Shown: one piece after another, positions 46,999 to 63,299 of the stretch
Numbering within the stretch: the first letter of the stretch is position 1
How the letters are laid out: every line of letters begins with the position of its first letter
Assembly: GCF_004214835.1 (NCBI RefSeq)
Contig: NZ_PIQJ01000001.1
Location: 1,302,001-1,366,000 of the forward strand
DNA from: Pseudidiomarina tainanensis
Lineage (GTDB): Bacteria > Pseudomonadota > Gammaproteobacteria > Enterobacterales > Alteromonadaceae
Direction of reading: 5' to 3'
DNA length: 64,000 nucleotides
Made by a program: the position numbers and the translations under genes
Notes under the pieces: generated by a model
Told to the model about the DNA's origin: nothing
The model's input: the letters and a program-made list of their open reading frames with translations, nothing else
Database searches by the model: none

Positions 46999-47427
46999 AT
47001 GAAACTTCTACCAATCGCTAGCGCTGTCGCGCTGTCTCTGGCTTTTTTGACCTCGCCAGTAATCGCGCATGACCATGGTAAAAAAGACCATAAACACGAT
47101 GAGCAAGAGCGACCAGATCATTACAAAGGCAAACCATCTGAAAACTTAACTCAAGCTTTAAACAATCTACGTGAATACAATAAGTTACTAAATACTGAAT
47201 TAAGTGGTGAATTAACCCCACAAAAAATGGCAGAAATTCATCAGCTTACATACACGCTTGAGCGTGCGCTTGAGCGATTAGATGACGAAATCGATGAAAT
47301 GAAAGATGTACTGGAAGAAGTACACCTTGGTTCGGAGCGCATGGAACTTGACCGTGTGAAGAAAAACGGGGCGAAATACCTCGAAGCCTCAAACAAAATT
47401 GTTGAAGCTGGTCGAGCGCACAAATAA
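46999..47427 (+). CDS. DUF6746 periplasmic His-rich protein
   Basis: 142 residues: signal peptide (cleaved near IAHDH), a His/Lys/Asp-rich head (HDHGKKDHKHDEQERPDHYKG) able to bind metal, then a long helical hairpin (LTQALNNLREYNKLLNTELSG; LERALERLDDEIDEMKDVLEE). AAGGAG ribosome site. The preceding Fur box suggests iron control. The TAATG overlap with moxR shows they are co-translated. Confidence 0.75.
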   Translation: MKLLPIASAVALSLAFLTSPVIAHDHGKKDHKHDEQERPDHYKGKPSENLTQALNNLREYNKLLNTELSGELTPQKMAEIHQLTYTLERALERLDDEIDEMKDVLEEVHLGSERMELDRVKKNGAKYLEASNKIVEAGRAHK

Positions 47428-48263
47428 TGAGTTTTGCGAGTACCGAAAGTTACATTGTTGCCGATGATCTTGGCCTAGCAGTCAACGCAGCCGTAACCCT
47501 CGAAAAGCCACTACTGCTGAAGGGTGAACCCGGTACAGGTAAAACCCGACTAGCGGAAGAACTGGCCGCTAGCTTGGGCGTGCCGCTTATACGCTGGCAA
47601 ATTAAATCAACAACCAAAGCACAACAAGGTCTCTATGAGTATGACGCTGTATCGCGCTTACGCGACAGCCAGCTCGGTAGCGAAAAAGTTCACGACATAG
47701 CCAATTACATTAAGCCGGGCAAATTGTGGCAAGCTTTTACTGCTGCAGAACGCCCAGTTCTGCTCATTGATGAAATCGATAAAGCGGACATTGAGTTTCC
47801 GAATGACTTGCTACACGAACTTGACCAGATGGAATTTCATGTTTATGAAACTGGTGAGCAAGTACGTGCCGAACACCGTCCGATTGTGATTATCACTTCA
47901 AACAACGAGAAAGAGCTACCAGACGCATTTTTGCGACGTTGTTTCTTTCATTACATCAAGTTCCCAGATGCGGATACGTTGGCGAAAATTGTCCAAGTAC
48001 ACTACCCCGATATTCGTAAAGACTTACTCAGTTCAGCCCTCGAGGTATTCTTTGATTTACGGCAAGTACCGAGTTTAAAAAAGAAACCATCAACATCAGA
48101 ATTAATTGATTGGTTGAAGCTATTATTGGCTGAAGATATTAAGCCTGCCGAGCTTAGTAAGAGCAATGGTCTTATGCCTATGTTTGGCGCCCTATTGAAA
48201 AACGAACAAGACGTGCAACTAGTTGAAAAACTAGCGTTTATGGCACGTCGTCAATCGTCTTAA
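47427..48263 (+). CDS. MoxR-type AAA+ ATPase
   Basis: 278 residues. Walker A GEPGTGKT (33-40), Walker B LLIDEIDKAD (~112-121), sensor 1 VIITSNNEKELPDAFLRRC. MoxR ATPases with a VWA partner act as chaperones inserting metal cofactors or maturing complexes (for example CoxD/CoxE, NorQ/NorD). The partner gene follows at once, 4 bp downstream. Confidence 0.9.
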   Translation: MSFASTESYIVADDLGLAVNAAVTLEKPLLLKGEPGTGKTRLAEELAASLGVPLIRWQIKSTTKAQQGLYEYDAVSRLRDSQLGSEKVHDIANYIKPGKLWQAFTAAERPVLLIDEIDKADIEFPNDLLHELDQMEFHVYETGEQVRAEHRPIVIITSNNEKELPDAFLRRCFFHYIKFPDADTLAKIVQVHYPDIRKDLLSSALEVFFDLRQVPSLKKKPSTSELIDWLKLLLAEDIKPAELSKSNGLMPMFGALLKNEQDVQLVEKLAFMARRQSS

Positions 48264-48267
48264 CTGC

Positions 48268-49479
48268 ATGCTTATTGAGTTTTTCCTTTGCCTGCGCAAG
48301 CACGGCCTCAAAACCAGCCTCACCGAGCTTCTCGATTTGCTCGGTGCGCTGGAACGTGGCGTGGTGTTTGGTAACGTTGATGACTTCTACACACTCTCGC
48401 GTCTGGTGTTGGTGAAGGATGAAAGCCAATACGATCGCTTTGACCGCGCCTTTGCGGAATATTTTGAAGGGGTTGAGCAAGTCGACTTAGCGTCTGCAAT
48501 TCCCGCTGATTGGCTTGAACGTAGCCTGCAACGACAACTCAGTGACGAAGATAAAGCCAAGTTACAAGCGCTTGGTGGTCTTGATGAGCTCCTCAGAACG
48601 TTTCGAGAACGCCTTGCCGAACAACAGAAGCGCCACGCCGGCGGTAATAAATGGATTGGCACCGGCGGCACCTCGCCTTTTGGTGCCTATGGTTACCACC
48701 CCGAAGGCATTCGCATTGGCCAAGATGGTAGTAACGCTCGTCGCGCGGTGAAGGTGTGGGACAAACGTGAATTTCGAGATTTGGATGGTGACGCCGAGTT
48801 AGCGAACAGAAACCTGCAACTCGCACTGCGCAAATTACGCAAGTTTGCGCGTACTGGCGCTGCGGAAGAACTCGACCTAAATGGAACAATTCGCGCCACT
48901 TCGCAAAAAGGTGGTTTGTTAGATCTGCAGTGGCAGCCAGAACGTCACAATGCGGTGAAAGTCTTGTTATTGTTTGACGTCGGCGGTTCGATGGATGATT
49001 ACATTTACGAATGTGAACAATTGTTCTCCGCCGCTCGCAACGAATTCAAACATCTCGAGTTCTTTTATTTTCATAATTGTGTGTATGAACACGTTTGGAA
49101 GGACAATAATCGGCGCTATGACGAAAAATTACCGTTATTAGAATTAATTAATCGATATGGCCGCGATTACAAGCTGATATTTGTCGGTGATGCAACCATG
49201 GGTCCGTATGAAATTGCCTACCCTGGCGGTAGCGTTGAGCACTGGAATGAAGAGGCTGGCGCAGTGTGGATGCAACGCCTGTTGAATCACTTTACCGATG
49301 CGGTTTGGTTAAATCCGCAGCCAACCAGCCACTGGCGCTATTACCAATCGATTGATTTAATGCAACAGCTGATGAGTCAACGTATGTATCCATTGACTCT
49401 TGATGGTATTAGTATGGCAATTACGACGCTGTTGAAAAAATCTGTCGCAACTGCGGTGCCTTCACCATCAAACTCTTAA
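48268..49479 (+). CDS. VWA-domain (CoxE-like) protein
   Basis: 403 residues with a C-terminal von Willebrand A domain. The MIDAS motif is DVGGS (in LLLFDVGGSMDDYIYECEQ), so the usual first Ser of DxSxS is Gly; the second Ser is kept. N-terminal helical part (FFLCLRKHGLKTSLTELLDLLGAL) and a GTGGTSPFGAYGYHPEGIRIG linker typical of the family. Forms a chaperone pair with the MoxR ATPase. The last 59 bp overlap the antisense 3' end of nsrR. Confidence 0.87.
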   Translation: MLIEFFLCLRKHGLKTSLTELLDLLGALERGVVFGNVDDFYTLSRLVLVKDESQYDRFDRAFAEYFEGVEQVDLASAIPADWLERSLQRQLSDEDKAKLQALGGLDELLRTFRERLAEQQKRHAGGNKWIGTGGTSPFGAYGYHPEGIRIGQDGSNARRAVKVWDKREFRDLDGDAELANRNLQLALRKLRKFARTGAAEELDLNGTIRATSQKGGLLDLQWQPERHNAVKVLLLFDVGGSMDDYIYECEQLFSAARNEFKHLEFFYFHNCVYEHVWKDNNRRYDEKLPLLELINRYGRDYKLIFVGDATMGPYEIAYPGGSVEHWNEEAGAVWMQRLLNHFTDAVWLNPQPTSHWRYYQSIDLMQQLMSQRMYPLTLDGISMAITTLLKKSVATAVPSPSNS

Positions 49480-49870
49480 GCGAATATTGACTGAGATAGT
49501 CATAAAATAGCTCTTTACCGCGTGCGACAATGCCCTTTAGCTCGCACGCTGGCAGCGCCACGCAGTATGGATTTTCGCACTCTATCCATTTCTCATCGCC
49601 TTCGAGTTGACGAATCACAAACGCCAGCGAGATATCCTCCGGCTTCTTCGCCAGTAAAAACCCACCGTTTTTGCCGCGGCGTGTTTCTATCAACTCCAAT
49701 CGTCCCAAATGATGCACTACTTTATTGACATGATTGGCTGACAGACTAAAGGTTTCGCAAATTTCACGAATTGTGGCCAGCTTCGGTTCAGTGCAGTTTT
49801 TATCTGCTTCAAAGCTCGCCAAATACATCAAAATGCGCAAGCCATAGTCGGTATATTTTTTCAGCTGCAT
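49421..49870 (-). CDS. nsrR: NsrR, nitric-oxide-sensing Fe-S repressor
   Basis: 149-residue Rrf2-family repressor from the ATG at 49870 (MQLKKYTDYGLRILMYLAS, the E. coli-like start). Winged helix with LSANHVNKVVHHLGRLELIETRRGKNGGF; the [Fe-S] ligands C98-x4-C103-x5-C109 have exactly the spacing of E. coli NsrR (C91, C96, C102), separating it from IscR. NO destroys the cluster and frees target genes. Divergent from a small membrane-protein gene with NsrR-like and FNR sites in between. Confidence 0.92.
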   Translation of the reverse strand: MQLKKYTDYGLRILMYLASFEADKNCTEPKLATIREICETFSLSANHVNKVVHHLGRLELIETRRGKNGGFLLAKKPEDISLAFVIRQLEGDEKWIECENPYCVALPACELKGIVARGKELFYDYLSQYSLKSLMVKAPQLRQIFSTAS

Positions 49871-49918
49871 AGATTGTCCAAAAAGGTACATTTTCGAAGC
49901 ATTATAGTATAGCAATCC

Positions 49919-49932
49919 TTGATCTTCATCAA
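49919..49932 (+). promoter_or_regulatory. FNR/Anr box
   Basis: TTGATCTTCATCAA is a full match to TTGATnnnnATCAA. Its centre is 41.5 bp before a start predicted at 49967 from the -10-like TATACA (49954-49959), the class II activator position for the rightward gene. Confidence 0.75.
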
Positions 49933-49954
49933 ACATACATTCATAATGCGCTTT
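49932..49954 (+). promoter_or_regulatory. NsrR-like box 1
   Basis: AACATACATTC-A-TAATGCGCTTT, an 11-1-11 inverted arrangement like the NsrR consensus (AAGATGYATTT-N-AAATRCATCTT), matching about 15 of 22 half-site positions. Overlaps the -10 region. Confidence 0.45.
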
Positions 49955-49959
49955 ATACA

Positions 49960-49982
49960 AACATGCATTGGAGATGTACTTT
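49960..49982 (+). promoter_or_regulatory. NsrR-like box 2
   Basis: AACATGCATTG-G-AGATGTACTTT; the left half matches the NsrR half-site at 9 of 11 positions. It ends at the start codon of the small membrane-protein gene, so binding would block transcription. Confidence 0.5.
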
Positions 49983-50216
49983 ATGGAGCAGCACCAATCA
50001 GGTCATAAATTACTCAAGGGCGCTAACTTTGCCATGGTGATTTTTTTAGGTTTATTTCTCATCGTTGCCTATTTAGCATGGGGGTTAGAAGCTGAATTCC
50101 CATTAATGGTGATTGCAGTATTACATTTCTTACAAATATTGCTGGCAGGTTTATTTAAACTTTCGTACGTGGTGCGATTAATAGCGCAGCACCATTTAGG
50201 ACAACCGCTGCGCTAA
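49983..50216 (+). CDS. Small two-helix inner-membrane protein (NsrR/FNR-controlled)
   Basis: 77 residues from the ATG at 49983 (MEQHQSGHKLLKG), with ribosome site GGAG about eight bases upstream of it. Two membrane segments (FAMVIFLGLFLIVAYLAWGL; LMVIAVLHFLQILLAGLFKL) joined by a short loop, and a His-containing tail (RLIAQHHLGQPLR). No family recognised. The regulatory sites predict expression when oxygen is low and NO is present, so a link to NO or respiratory metabolism is likely. Confidence 0.75.
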   Translation: MEQHQSGHKLLKGANFAMVIFLGLFLIVAYLAWGLEAEFPLMVIAVLHFLQILLAGLFKLSYVVRLIAQHHLGQPLR

Positions 50217-50224
50217 CCGTTGTT

Positions 50225-50503
50225 CTAGTAGCCTTCCATTGTGGCGAGACCAATGCCGCCCACTAATGCAACTAAGGTGAACATAATTAAAGCGACCACC
50301 ATCCATATCAACATTGCGCGAGCCCAATTACGTTTGCTTAGCGGTGTTGAATGACTGAATGCCCAAACGATCAACAAAATTAGCCCAACAAGTGGTATTC
50401 CCGCTAAAAAAATAGAAAGAAACCAATTGCCAGTACTTGTGTGTTCGTTATTGATATACGGTGCCGTTGCAGTGTTAGCAGATGACATGTTGGATTGTTC
50501 CAT
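50225..50503 (-). CDS. Small membrane protein, unknown
   Basis: 92 residues from the ATG at 50503, with AAGGAT six bases upstream; a longer frame starts at 50548. Polar, Ser/Thr/Asn-rich head of ~30 residues, then two hydrophobic segments (WFLSIFLAGIPLVGLILLIVWAF; AMLIWMVVALIMFTLVALVGGIG). Family not recognised. Convergent with the NsrR-linked gene, 8 bp apart. Confidence 0.65.
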   Translation of the reverse strand: MEQSNMSSANTATAPYINNEHTSTGNWFLSIFLAGIPLVGLILLIVWAFSHSTPLSKRNWARAMLIWMVVALIMFTLVALVGGIGLATMEGY

Positions 50504-50692
50504 GGATTTATCCTTGTTTTTTATTATGTTTTTTGTGCGATGTCGCAATTTTCATTGCGAACTTAAGCATAAGTGACCTAGTTAAATTTGCAAATAATTC
50601 AATATTGGACAATTGGTTTGACCAAACGCAAAGAATTTTTTCGTTAGGTTTATATACTGACACTCACATTCATTTCAGTTATGGAGGTGATC

Positions 50693-51730
50693 ATGGCGGC
50701 TGTTTTATCCTGTCATCATGATGTTCTCGCTGCGCTCTATGCGCCTGAACAATTTAGTAATCAAGTTTCCTCACATTTAAACGTGCCGAATGGCATGGAC
50801 GGTGACGAACATCAAGCCTACCGAGCGCTCATTGAGCCATTCTTCAGCGACGTTGTACTCACACAATTCCAACCTAAATTACAGGTCGTCATTGACGAAC
50901 TGCTCGATAATCTTGATGCACAGAGAGATGTGGAAGTGATGACCACACTTGCTCGTCCATTTGCATTACGTGCGCAGTGCGCTTTTATGGGCTGGCCCGT
51001 CGCGCTAGAGCAACGGTTAATTGACTGGATGGCTGCACAGAACTCAGCAACGTTGGCGCAAGACCGCCCTGCTCTGCGCTCCTTGGCTGACGAGTTTAGC
51101 GCCATCGTCATTGAGCAATTTGAACGCGCTCGGCGTTGTGAGTGTGACCTCGACTCGGTTACCGCTCAGTTAACACAATTGAGTTTGCGTGGTGAGCCTG
51201 TACCTGATGAATACTTAGTTAGTATCGTGCGCAATTGGACCGTTGGCGAGCTTGGCACTATTGCAGCAGCCGTTGGCTCCATTGTTGGTTTTCTGGCGCA
51301 GAATCCTGTCGTGCAAAAACAATTGCGCGCGGCACCGATGCATATTGATCACGCCATTGATGAAATACTTCGTATTGATGCGCCGTTATTGACCAATCGC
51401 CGCCGGACTACTTGTCCCATGCAGCTGGGCAATGAGTCTTATGATGTTGAGACAATAGTAACCATCGATTGGTGTGCCGCCAACACCGATTCTGCAGTCT
51501 TTGTTGAACCCCAGCAATTTAAATGGAATCGCGACCCGCATTTGAATTTACTTTACGGCGCCGGAGTCCATGTTTGCCCCGGTAAACCACTAGCCCAACT
51601 TGAACTTGGATTACTCACACGCTGTTTGCTGAATAAGTTCAGTACAATTCAACTCGGTGATAACGCTTTCGAACGTGCATTACCACCCAGAGGTGGATAT
51701 CAATCTATTTGGGTGAAATTTAATCATTGA
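50693..51730 (+). CDS. Cytochrome P450 (short, unusual I-helix)
   Basis: 345 residues from the ATG at 50693, placed by a strong GGAGG site. Heme Cys295 lies in YGAGVHVCPGK, ExxR is E224-R227 (EILR), and the C-helix is EHQAYRALIEPFF. The I-helix (~181-201) reads NWTVGELGTIAAAVG and lacks the acid-alcohol pair (usually ET or DT) used to split O2. The N-terminus is also shorter than the ~400 aa norm. Soluble, no membrane anchor and no ferredoxin partner nearby. May be a peroxygenase-like or atypical P450. First of four same-strand genes. Confidence 0.88.
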   Translation: MAAVLSCHHDVLAALYAPEQFSNQVSSHLNVPNGMDGDEHQAYRALIEPFFSDVVLTQFQPKLQVVIDELLDNLDAQRDVEVMTTLARPFALRAQCAFMGWPVALEQRLIDWMAAQNSATLAQDRPALRSLADEFSAIVIEQFERARRCECDLDSVTAQLTQLSLRGEPVPDEYLVSIVRNWTVGELGTIAAAVGSIVGFLAQNPVVQKQLRAAPMHIDHAIDEILRIDAPLLTNRRRTTCPMQLGNESYDVETIVTIDWCAANTDSAVFVEPQQFKWNRDPHLNLLYGAGVHVCPGKPLAQLELGLLTRCLLNKFSTIQLGDNAFERALPPRGGYQSIWVKFNH

Positions 51731-51740
51731 TCTAAAAACT

Positions 51741-51786
51741 GAATCATGATTCACTTCTTGGTATGTATTTCTAAATACCGAGAAGT
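51741..51786 (+). promoter_or_regulatory. Probable TetR operator
   Basis: A perfect palindrome GAATCATGATTC (51741-51752) adjoins a 34-bp inverted repeat with arms ACTTCTTGGTAT and ATACCGAGAAGT (one mismatch), ending 3 bp before the TetR start codon. Typical of an autorepressor site. Confidence 0.6.
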
Positions 51787-51788
51787 CT

Positions 51789-52409
51789 ATGGCCTATCGA
51801 GAAACATCGCGAGTGCGCGAACGTAAGCTAGCCACTCGCACAAACATTTTAACCAATGCACTGATTTTGCTTAACGAAGTCGGTTTTGCTGGTTTGCAAA
51901 TGGCTACCCTTGCCCAGCGCTCGACCGTCGCAACCGGTACGCTGTATCGCTATTTCCCATCTAAAGACGACTTGTGTACAGCCGTTTTTGAACACGCAAC
52001 TGAAATAGAAGTCGCACAAGTGCAGCAACACCTAGAAGCAACTGAACTCAGTGCTCCTGAACGTATTGCCGCCGCTTTAACGGCGTTTGCTAAACGTGCT
52101 TTACGCGCCCCAATTACCGCATGGGCGTTGATTGCAGAGCCCGTAGAACCAGCCGTTGTTGCGGCTCGCTTACGCTACCGCGAACGGTATGCTGGTTTGT
52201 TCGCACAAGCCATTGAGAAAGGCATTCGTGAAAATACGTTGCCGTCACAAGACAGTGCGTTAAGTAGTCGCGCATTGGTTGGAGCGATTGCCGAAGCATT
52301 AATTGGACCGCTTGCCCACAAAACCGAATTTGACCCAAACCAAGCGATTACCGATAGCGTGCGCTTTTGCCTGCAAGCGATTACTGCGAATAAATACCCG
52401 CATATATAA
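51789..52409 (+). CDS. TetR/AcrR-family repressor
   Basis: 206 residues; N-terminal TetR DNA-binding domain (ATRTNILTNALILLNEVGFAGLQMATLAQRSTVATGTLYRYFPSKDDL) and a ligand-binding C-terminal domain. Placed between the P450 and an acyl-CoA dehydrogenase/ligase pair, it probably controls these genes in response to a fatty acid or acyl-CoA ligand, as FadR/PsrA-like TetRs do; that ligand is inferred. Confidence 0.87.
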   Translation: MAYRETSRVRERKLATRTNILTNALILLNEVGFAGLQMATLAQRSTVATGTLYRYFPSKDDLCTAVFEHATEIEVAQVQQHLEATELSAPERIAAALTAFAKRALRAPITAWALIAEPVEPAVVAARLRYRERYAGLFAQAIEKGIRENTLPSQDSALSSRALVGAIAEALIGPLAHKTEFDPNQAITDSVRFCLQAITANKYPHI

Positions 52410-52424
52410 CCAGGGACAATCATT

Positions 52425-54089
52425 ATGAACACCACCGACCGTTTTCTTTCTCAAACTCATACAGTTAAAAATCAACCACCAGCGCTTGAGGACTACAATC
52501 TTTTTGCTGAAGATCAAGCCTTACAGGAAGCCGTCAAGCGTGAAGGCGCTGCTTGGTCTGAACAAGACTTGCTGCGTTTCGGTGCGGAGTGCGGATTGCC
52601 CGAGCGCATTACCTTAGGTTTTGCCGCAAATGCCAACAAACCTCAGTTAATGACACACGACCGTTTTGGCCATCGAATCGATCAAATTGACTTCCATCCG
52701 AGTTACCACCAACTGATGGATATCGCAATTACCGAAGGTCTGCACGCCAGCCCATGGGCCAATCCAAAGCCCGGAGCGCACGTAGCCCGCGCCGCAAAAT
52801 ACTATTTGCACACACAAGTTGAAGCCGCACATGGATGTCCGATAACAATGACCTTTGCTGCCATACCTGCCCTGCACCACCAACCCGACCTACTGGCAAA
52901 ATTCGGGCCCAAAATTATGGCGCCAGAATATGACGGACGTAATGTTCCAGACACCATGAAACACGGCATGACAATTGGTATGGCAATGACTGAAAAGCAA
53001 GGCGGATCAGACGTCAGAACCAACACCACCAAAGCCTATGCAATTGGCGCAGAAGGCCCGGGGAAAGCCTATGAATTAGTTGGCCATAAATGGTTTGTAT
53101 CTGCGCCCATGTGCGATGCGTTTTTGGTACTTGCGCAAACTGAGAAAGGCCTATCTTGTTTTCTATTGCCGCGCTGGCGACCAGACGGTACTAAGAATGC
53201 GCTGCATATTCAGCAACTGAAGAACAAAATGGGGAACGTTGCGAACGCCTCGAGTGAATGCGAATTACGCGGTGCCCTCGCTTGGATGGTTGGTGAGGAA
53301 GGCCGCGGCGTGCGTACCATCATCGAGATGGTCGCCATGACCCGTTACGATTGCATGATTGGTTCATCATCAGGCATGCGCCAAGCAATCGTTCAAGCAA
53401 TCCATCATGCCCAACACCGCAGCGCTTTTGGCGCCACGCTCGTTGATCAGCCATTGATGCAGAATGTGTTGGCTGACCTAGCATTAGAAAGCGAGGCTGC
53501 CATGACGCTAACCATGCGTATGGCTCGGGCGATGGATCAACAAGATAATGAACACGAACGCTTGTTAGCACGTATAGCGACACCTATTGGTAAGTATTGG
53601 ATCTGCAAGCGCACGCCCAACCATGCCTATGAAGCAATGGAAGTGATTGGTGGTATGGGCGTTATGGAAAACACCATCATGCCGCGGCTATTTCGCGAAT
53701 CACCAGTTAATGCGATTTGGGAAGGTAGCGGTAACGTTCAATGTCTTGATATCTTGCGCGCGATTCAGAAAGAACCGGAAGTACTCGAAGCCTATTTCAA
53801 TGAGCTTCAACGCGCTGTTGGCACTGACAAACGCTTCGATTTCTTTGTCTCTAAATTAAAAGCGGACTTTAGCTCCACGCCAAAAGAACAATGGCAATAT
53901 CAAGCACGGTATTTTGCTGATCATATGGCAATTGCACTGCAAGCAGCGTTATTACTCCAACATGCGCCTGCGTATATCGCCGATGCCTTTTGCGCTTCTC
54001 GCCTAACCGCACATACGAGCGCCAATTACGGTTGCCTACCAACTGGTCTCGATCCACGTGCGATTATCAAGCGAGCGCTTTCGGCATAA
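52425..54089 (+). CDS. AidB-like acyl-CoA dehydrogenase
   Basis: 554 residues, colinear with E. coli AidB (541 aa): CPITMTFAA, GMAMTEKQGGSDVRTNTT, VGHKWFVSAPMCDAFLVLAQT, MTRYDCMIGSS, and EVIGGMGVMEN. AidB-type proteins bind DNA and FAD and protect against alkylation, and some are isovaleryl-CoA-dehydrogenase-like. Next to an acyl-CoA ligase, a catabolic role is more likely than DNA protection. 15 bp after tetR. Confidence 0.9.
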   Translation: MNTTDRFLSQTHTVKNQPPALEDYNLFAEDQALQEAVKREGAAWSEQDLLRFGAECGLPERITLGFAANANKPQLMTHDRFGHRIDQIDFHPSYHQLMDIAITEGLHASPWANPKPGAHVARAAKYYLHTQVEAAHGCPITMTFAAIPALHHQPDLLAKFGPKIMAPEYDGRNVPDTMKHGMTIGMAMTEKQGGSDVRTNTTKAYAIGAEGPGKAYELVGHKWFVSAPMCDAFLVLAQTEKGLSCFLLPRWRPDGTKNALHIQQLKNKMGNVANASSECELRGALAWMVGEEGRGVRTIIEMVAMTRYDCMIGSSSGMRQAIVQAIHHAQHRSAFGATLVDQPLMQNVLADLALESEAAMTLTMRMARAMDQQDNEHERLLARIATPIGKYWICKRTPNHAYEAMEVIGGMGVMENTIMPRLFRESPVNAIWEGSGNVQCLDILRAIQKEPEVLEAYFNELQRAVGTDKRFDFFVSKLKADFSSTPKEQWQYQARYFADHMAIALQAALLLQHAPAYIADAFCASRLTAHTSANYGCLPTGLDPRAIIKRALSA

Positions 54090-63263: not shown

Positions 63264-63299
63264 CCTGCACATCATTGATCGAGATCAAAGATGCGCAGG
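63264..63299. promoter_or_regulatory. 36-bp palindrome containing an FNR box
   Basis: CCTGCACATCATTGATC and GATCAAAGATGCGCAGG are 17-bp arms (two mismatches) around GA. The core TTGATCGAGATCAA (63275-63288) fits FNR TTGATnnnnATCAA completely. It is 41.5 bp from a start predicted near 63240 for the reverse-strand Cys-rich gene. A hairpin function after cusA is the alternative. Confidence 0.6.

Follow-up and report, generated by a model that had tools for sequence, protein, structure and literature searches.

A small membrane-protein gene beside nsrR in Pseudidiomarina tainanensis, with a predicted FNR/NsrR promoter and a probable role in nitric oxide tolerance

Genes and promoter elements at the locus

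The window (the whole 64,000-nucleotide stretch of DNA analysed) is taken from Pseudidiomarina tainanensis and corresponds to G000:C1:1302001-1366000, G000 being the host genome. Pseudidiomarina is a marine gammaproteobacterium with a small genome. A small gene and an nsrR-like gene are transcribed divergently in the window, and the promoter elements lie between them. The features are as follows (window positions).

49421-49870, minus strand: gene for an NsrR-like Rrf2 repressor of 149 aa, divergent from the small gene (Pfam Rrf2, 4.2e-29)
49883-49905, no strand assigned: weaker NsrR-like palindrome beside nsrR (three mismatches), found in part of the Pseudidiomarina loci only
49919-49932, no strand assigned: FNR box TTGATCTTCATCAA, exact match, centre 49925.5
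49932-49954, no strand assigned: NsrR-like box 1, two mismatches on each strand, 80% identity over 24 loci, filling the gap from the FNR box to the -10 element
49954-49959, plus strand: -10-like TATACA; a TATA-like sequence stands here in most of 24 upstream regions
49960-49982, no strand assigned: NsrR-like box 2, zero mismatches, 78% identity over 24 loci, spanning the predicted transcript start and ribosome-binding site
49983-50216, plus strand: small gene for a 77-aa predicted membrane hairpin protein, helices 2-34 and 41-72

The best NCBIfam match of the repressor is NsrR (104 bits, below the 182-bit cut-off) and the protein carries three cysteines (C-x4-C-x5-C); on these two grounds the gene is taken as the putative NsrR orthologue of the host. 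The palindrome at 49883-49905 may serve nsrR autoregulation. An AAA+ ATPase gene and a VWA/CoxE-like gene (47427-49479, plus strand) lie upstream of nsrR; this pair was present in 12 of 14 Pseudidiomarina-type loci and missing at both P. indica loci. A link of the small gene to this pair as a NorQ/NorD-like insertase was rejected, the pair being missing in the two P. indica loci, whose genus-mates have norB, and present in P. salinarum, which lacks norB. The quinol NO reductase is described as independent of NorQD (PMC9976466).

The ATG at 49983 was taken as the start of the small gene because in-frame stops directly precede it in several relatives. The small gene is probably transcribed alone, since the next downstream gene (50225-50548) lies on the opposite strand. 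That convergent gene encodes a 107-aa putative membrane protein with no Pfam or NCBIfam match above cut-off, and a relative of it comes after the small gene in four other loci (L072, L077, L079 and L080). Genes for a cytochrome P450, a TetR regulator and an AidB-type acyl-CoA dehydrogenase are found at 50681-54089 (plus strand); of the 28 named loci, 12 have a P450 relative after the small gene.

The FNR box and the two NsrR-like palindromes had been proposed in an earlier note on this DNA, which put the FNR box at -41.5 from a predicted start, and all three sites were confirmed. Exact FNR boxes numbered two in the window against 0.18 expected from shuffles (the other lies at 63275-63288) and 22 genome-wide against two for a reversed control pattern. 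With TATACA taken as the -10 element, transcription would start near 49966-49967, which would put the centre of the FNR box at about -40.5 to -41.5; the position holds with respect to this predicted transcript start and not to the start codon at 49983. About -41 is the class II activating position for FNR. Both an exact box at a predicted position near -41.5 and a host Fnr gene (315.6 bits against a 228-bit profile cut-off) are thus present, as in a class II FNR promoter.

NsrR-like box 1 shares one base (49932) with the FNR box, and box 2 runs up to the last base ahead of the ATG and takes in a GGAG resembling a ribosome-binding site. NsrR, if bound at both boxes as predicted, would cover the -35/-10 spacer, the transcript start and the ribosome-binding site. 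The stretch 49960-49982 is the sole zero-mismatch place in the genome for our own NsrR pattern, which was composed after this site had been seen and is therefore not independent of it. When three mismatches were allowed, the same pattern matched 40 places on one strand and 46 on the other, compared with 32 and 27 for the control, so that most of these are due to chance. When compared with the consensus gATGyAT-N5-ATrCATc (Rodionov 2005), the two boxes of the window have five and four mismatches out of 14; sites with at most three mismatches to this consensus were found in 25 of 28 orthologous upstream regions, as opposed to 51 of 1400 block shuffles. A scan of the host genome with the published consensus was uninformative (at least 257 matches per strand against at least 144 for the control).

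Conservation was assessed over 24 loci of Pseudidiomarina, Idiomarina and Aliidiomarina, with the window itself counted as one row. Identity to the window was 0.90 for the FNR half-sites and 0.80 and 0.78 for the two NsrR-like boxes, falling to 0.65 for the spacer of the FNR box, 0.58 for the stretch separating the NsrR-like boxes and 0.48 further upstream; the background, calculated without the window at 25 four-fold codon sites of the small gene, was 0.38. The promoter is conserved well above this background, and the outcome that the earlier note had named as refuting its reading, boxes that are not conserved in relatives, was not what was found. The FNR box is weaker in part of the set (for instance L058 and L081) and was not found 5' of the small gene in Alteromonas halophila, Aestuariibacter and BrNp21-10, where the NsrR-like boxes are kept. 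Among 61 loci with the small gene, two or more boxes matching our own pattern were found in 19 and one in four; two were found in none of 1220 shuffles. In Thalassomonas (L082) neither an NsrR match at 1e-10 nor an NsrR-like box within three mismatches was detected.

The small protein and its family

The closest named loci encode small proteins 96% (Idiomarina sp. 34-48-12), 91% (P. woesei) and 88% (P. marina) identical to that of the window. In a 26-row alignment of diverse members H48, K59, Y62, R65 and G73 are invariant and N15 and V63 nearly so; H48 is the one invariant histidine, and there is no invariant cysteine. Locus L046 was excluded from alignment A1. A confident hairpin was predicted by AlphaFold2 from 29 rows (mean pLDDT 93.6, pTM 0.77). 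On a helical wheel H48, Q51, A55, K59, Y62, L66, Q69 and G73 fall within 60-140 degrees, that is, on one face of helix 2, and each is kept in 90% or more of the 29 rows.

A Foldseek search of the PDB with the model gave 181 matches at E <= 10 and none at E <= 0.001, VIA-align returned Z scores of up to 9.9, a range that the tool deems common for helical bundles, and the matches were generic helical hairpins. A sequence search of the PDB gave no match at E 1.

The earlier note had called the protein unknown, and this was borne out: none of 26 members had a convincing match to a Pfam or NCBIfam family. For the Prokaryotic oxidase subunit IV/NorF-like group there was no oxidase-subunit Pfam match and one NCBIfam CoxD match (E 0.059) among the 26 members. 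NorF and NorEF are small membrane proteins with an accessory role, encoded in the nor operon; the small protein resembles them as a small membrane protein tied to NO genes. It differs in its setting: NorE and NorF are encoded in operons for cytochrome-c NO reductase, and the NorB of the host is a single, long protein with a NorB cytochrome-c-like domain, classed as of the quinol kind from its length and its being a single gene. YchH, a small stress-induced membrane protein, is alike in size and location, but its matches (PF10762 and NF007968; one and two of 26 members, best E 0.071 and 0.099) are at chance level.

Homology to NnrS was also considered. The NnrS domain (PF05940) gave no match at E 1 for any of the 26 members. 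By eye, the invariant His and Arg line up with a conserved H..T..G...R stretch in NnrS, but the P values from hhalign were 0.33 and, once more sequences were added, 0.44; because of these values the homology was set aside as evidence.

The family was detected in 56 of 195 relatives by a single-sequence search and in 62 by a 26-row profile. These 62 retain weak members (G062, E 5.4e-4; G088; G054; G065) and include genome G002, where a C-terminal fragment (L140, G002:C14:192498-192566) is the sole trace of the small gene. Twenty distant regions were chosen down the E-value list and not by neighbourhood; G085, of the same genus as G038, was passed over. Besides its intact small gene, genome G014 has a second, partial C-terminal copy some 6 kb away (L139 7686-7820). 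In a class-wide sample the family was present in two of 369 genomes, the host and one of the host's family. The family is lineage-restricted and unnamed; no account of it was found in the literature searched, and an earlier automatic listing, in RegPrecise or in the supplement of a paper, is possible.

Neighbourhoods and co-occurrence with nitric oxide genes

Gene neighbourhoods were read at 61 loci, i.e. all 62 family genomes except G002, reaching 1.5 kb on each side for the 18 same-genus loci and at least 3 kb for the others; neighbours were scored within 3 kb. Profile searches upheld the NorR label of reference L047 and of the host's copy; every other norR, nsrR, hmp or nnrS label was assigned by similarity to a single reference for each gene. 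The genes so scored were norR (30 loci), nnrS (23), nsrR (22), hmp (21), HPP (3), norB (2) and ytfE (2), with none in six. The small gene thus adjoins nsrR or norR at 52 of 61 loci, and at none were both regulators found together. A typical locus of the NsrR type in other genera consists of a divergent nsrR, the small gene and nnrS; one of the NorR type consists of a divergent norR, the small gene, nnrS and hmp. Where nnrS is near, it lies downstream on the same strand in 22 of 23 cases; Alteromonas halophila and Aestuariibacter halophilus are examples of species with such a putative small gene-nnrS operon. Strict sigma-54 sites were found in the upstream stretch scanned at six of the 30 norR loci, at no other locus and in none of 1220 shuffles. 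Two changes of regulator were placed on the family tree of these 61 loci, which was built by a quick method from few columns.

Of the six loci at which none of these genes was scored, two (G045 and G052) retain NsrR-like boxes. Within 3 kb of the other four (G038, G085, G136 and G159) there is neither an NO gene nor a regulator nor a box. In the genus of the window the small gene stands alone and nnrS lies on another contig; over longer stretches of the named Pseudidiomarina loci, neither nnrS nor hmp came within about 3 kb of it. At three loci (L043 5842-7019, L145 5897-7134 and L147 4867-6144) a gene for an HPP-family membrane protein (PF04982 each time) comes after the small gene, and the divergent neighbour is a gene that appears LysR-like by eye.

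Co-occurrence was counted in the 195 relatives, with NnrS and Hmp taken above cut-off only (128 of 129 raw NnrS matches, G020 being dropped, and 53 of 194 raw Hmp matches). NnrS was present in 62 of 62 family-positive and 66 of 133 family-negative genomes (31/31 and 33/66 by genus) and, among genomes bearing Hmp or NorB, in 48/48 and 25/37, respectively. The 66 family-negative genomes with NnrS indicate that NnrS does not need the family. Hmp was found in 26/62 family-positive and 27/133 family-negative genomes, qNorB in 24/62 and 13/133, and either of the two in 48/62 and 37/133. Hcp was rarer with the family (2/62 against 21/133), and a link to hcp was rejected on this count; in genome G136 one contig carries both hcp and the small gene, about 6 kb apart. 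The genomes are related and kinship is handled by the genus counts only, so that the p-values of these comparisons overstate their independence. A check by co-occurrence, which the earlier note had proposed, came out strongly positive for NnrS, moderately positive for Hmp and qNorB and negative for hcp.

The host has a cluster of NO and anaerobic genes on contig 5 (L126, G000:C5:275000-290000) with Fnr, YtfE-like, NorR, NnrS, UbiU, HemN and NorB genes recognized by profile. NorR, Fnr, UbiU and HemN scored over their cut-offs and NorB was labelled by Pfam, the YtfE-like and nitrite reductase-like proteins falling below theirs; UbiV-, UbiT- and NrdD/G-like genes in the cluster were labelled by eye. 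Sigma-54 sites are present 5' of norB and of the ytfE-like gene. Between the ubiU and ubiT-like starts (L126 8225-8262) lies a TTGAT half-site, followed after 15 bases by an NsrR-like palindrome with two mismatches on each strand; the palindrome stands upstream of a run of genes ending in nnrS and recurs in L135 (G022); in L137 (G013) it was not detected. On contig 3 (L157 3434-5987, G000:C3) a gene resembling copper nitrite reductase (TIGR02376, 196 bits with a cut-off of 296) is followed by an FGE-domain gene, NirV-like by eye, and by an SCO-like gene, also by eye. Given this nitrite reductase-like gene, the host cell may make NO itself.

Possible role of the small protein

Regulators of NO response adjoin 52 of the 61 loci and every family-positive genome carries NnrS; together these findings point to the family as an NO-response gene placed under two unrelated NO sensors, NsrR and NorR. 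That the small gene has an NO-related role is very probable. The earlier note had suggested a role in NO or in cytochrome bd/cbb3 metabolism. Its first part is well supported by the neighbourhoods and the regulator; for the second, no cytochrome bd/cbb3 or other oxidase gene was recognized by eye beside the small gene in the loci read. Its control logic, with activation at low oxygen and derepression by NO, is supported by the conserved sites as a prediction from sequence.

The arrangement of an FNR activator and an NsrR repressor is already known, and what is new here is the protein family. At hcp-hcr an FNR site lies upstream and an NsrR palindrome downstream of it (PMC1274295), and at aniA FNR is described as essential and NsrR as the repressor (PMC10187123). 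The predicted sites of the small gene resemble these, and differ in that there are two tandem NsrR-like boxes, the first touching the FNR box, and in that the product is another one. NnrS, already placed in both NsrR and NorR regulons (PMC1274295), shares its regulators with the small gene and its neighbourhood at 23 of 61 loci; it is unlike the small protein in being a many-helix protein of about 400 aa.

In the explanation that we prefer, and which we consider reasonably likely, the small gene encodes an FNR/NsrR-controlled accessory membrane protein that aids NnrS-dependent NO tolerance. Low oxygen would lead FNR to switch the gene on, and NsrR on the two boxes over the promoter and start would repress it until NO damages the iron-sulphur cluster of NsrR. 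FNR binding, NsrR binding and induction by NO are all predicted from the sites. The inner-membrane hairpin would then be made when NO rises at low oxygen and would aid the NnrS branch of tolerance, docking on NnrS, or helping to assemble or supply it, by means of the conserved face of helix 2. In Vibrio cholerae NnrS is reported to shield the iron pool from dinitrosyl iron complexes and not to remove NO (PMC9246220). A direct partnership of the small protein with NnrS is plausible, with the balance tipped slightly against it. A narrower form, in which the family is an NnrS subunit or assembly factor, its invariant in-membrane His and its K-x2-Y-V-x-R segment would form a docking or heme/iron-nitrosyl handling site and control would lie with NsrR in one lineage and NorR in another, is put forward tentatively and is rather doubtful.

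An alternative that we regard as unlikely is that the protein has no specific link with NnrS and acts as a general NO-stress shield of some respiratory enzyme, such as a terminal oxidase or the quinol NO reductase. The neighbours do vary, with hmp, norB and HPP genes at 21, two and three of 61 loci, and within the host's genus the family tracks qNorB to much the same degree as NnrS (17/19 against 1/7, with NnrS at 19/19 against 4/7, the 19 including the G002 fragment), no quinol NorB being found in G002, where a remnant of the small gene survives. Outside that genus, however, qNorB does not track the family (7/43 against 12/126, p=0.26) and NnrS is present in 43 of 43 genomes; genome G007 has an intact small gene and no qNorB, and inspection by eye of the loci read showed no oxidase gene next to it.

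A putative heme- or metal-binding membrane protein, with H48 as a ligand, that senses or scavenges NO or handles iron-nitrosyl species seems improbable. The predicted NO regulation would suit such a protein, as would an invariant H48 that shares its helix face with K59 and Y62, but a single invariant histidine with no invariant cysteine, and no solved relative, speak against it. That the NsrR-like boxes serve nsrR autoregulation only, with the small gene as a bystander, is very improbable: nsrR is divergent from the small gene at all 18 same-genus loci, yet the boxes sit over the small gene's own promoter and start and persist at six Idiomarina loci where nsrR is no neighbour (an NsrR relative being found elsewhere in all six genomes).

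The preferred reading, aid to NnrS-dependent tolerance, makes the small protein probably an overlooked helper in NO tolerance, given a promoter that appears to be built for low oxygen and NO and the many relatives that stand beside NO-defence genes. Being confined to NnrS-bearing genomes among the 195 searched, often lying beside nnrS and apparently answering to two NO sensors, it would be a concrete candidate for an NnrS partner, and an unnamed, lineage-restricted family would thereby gain a testable role in NO tolerance.
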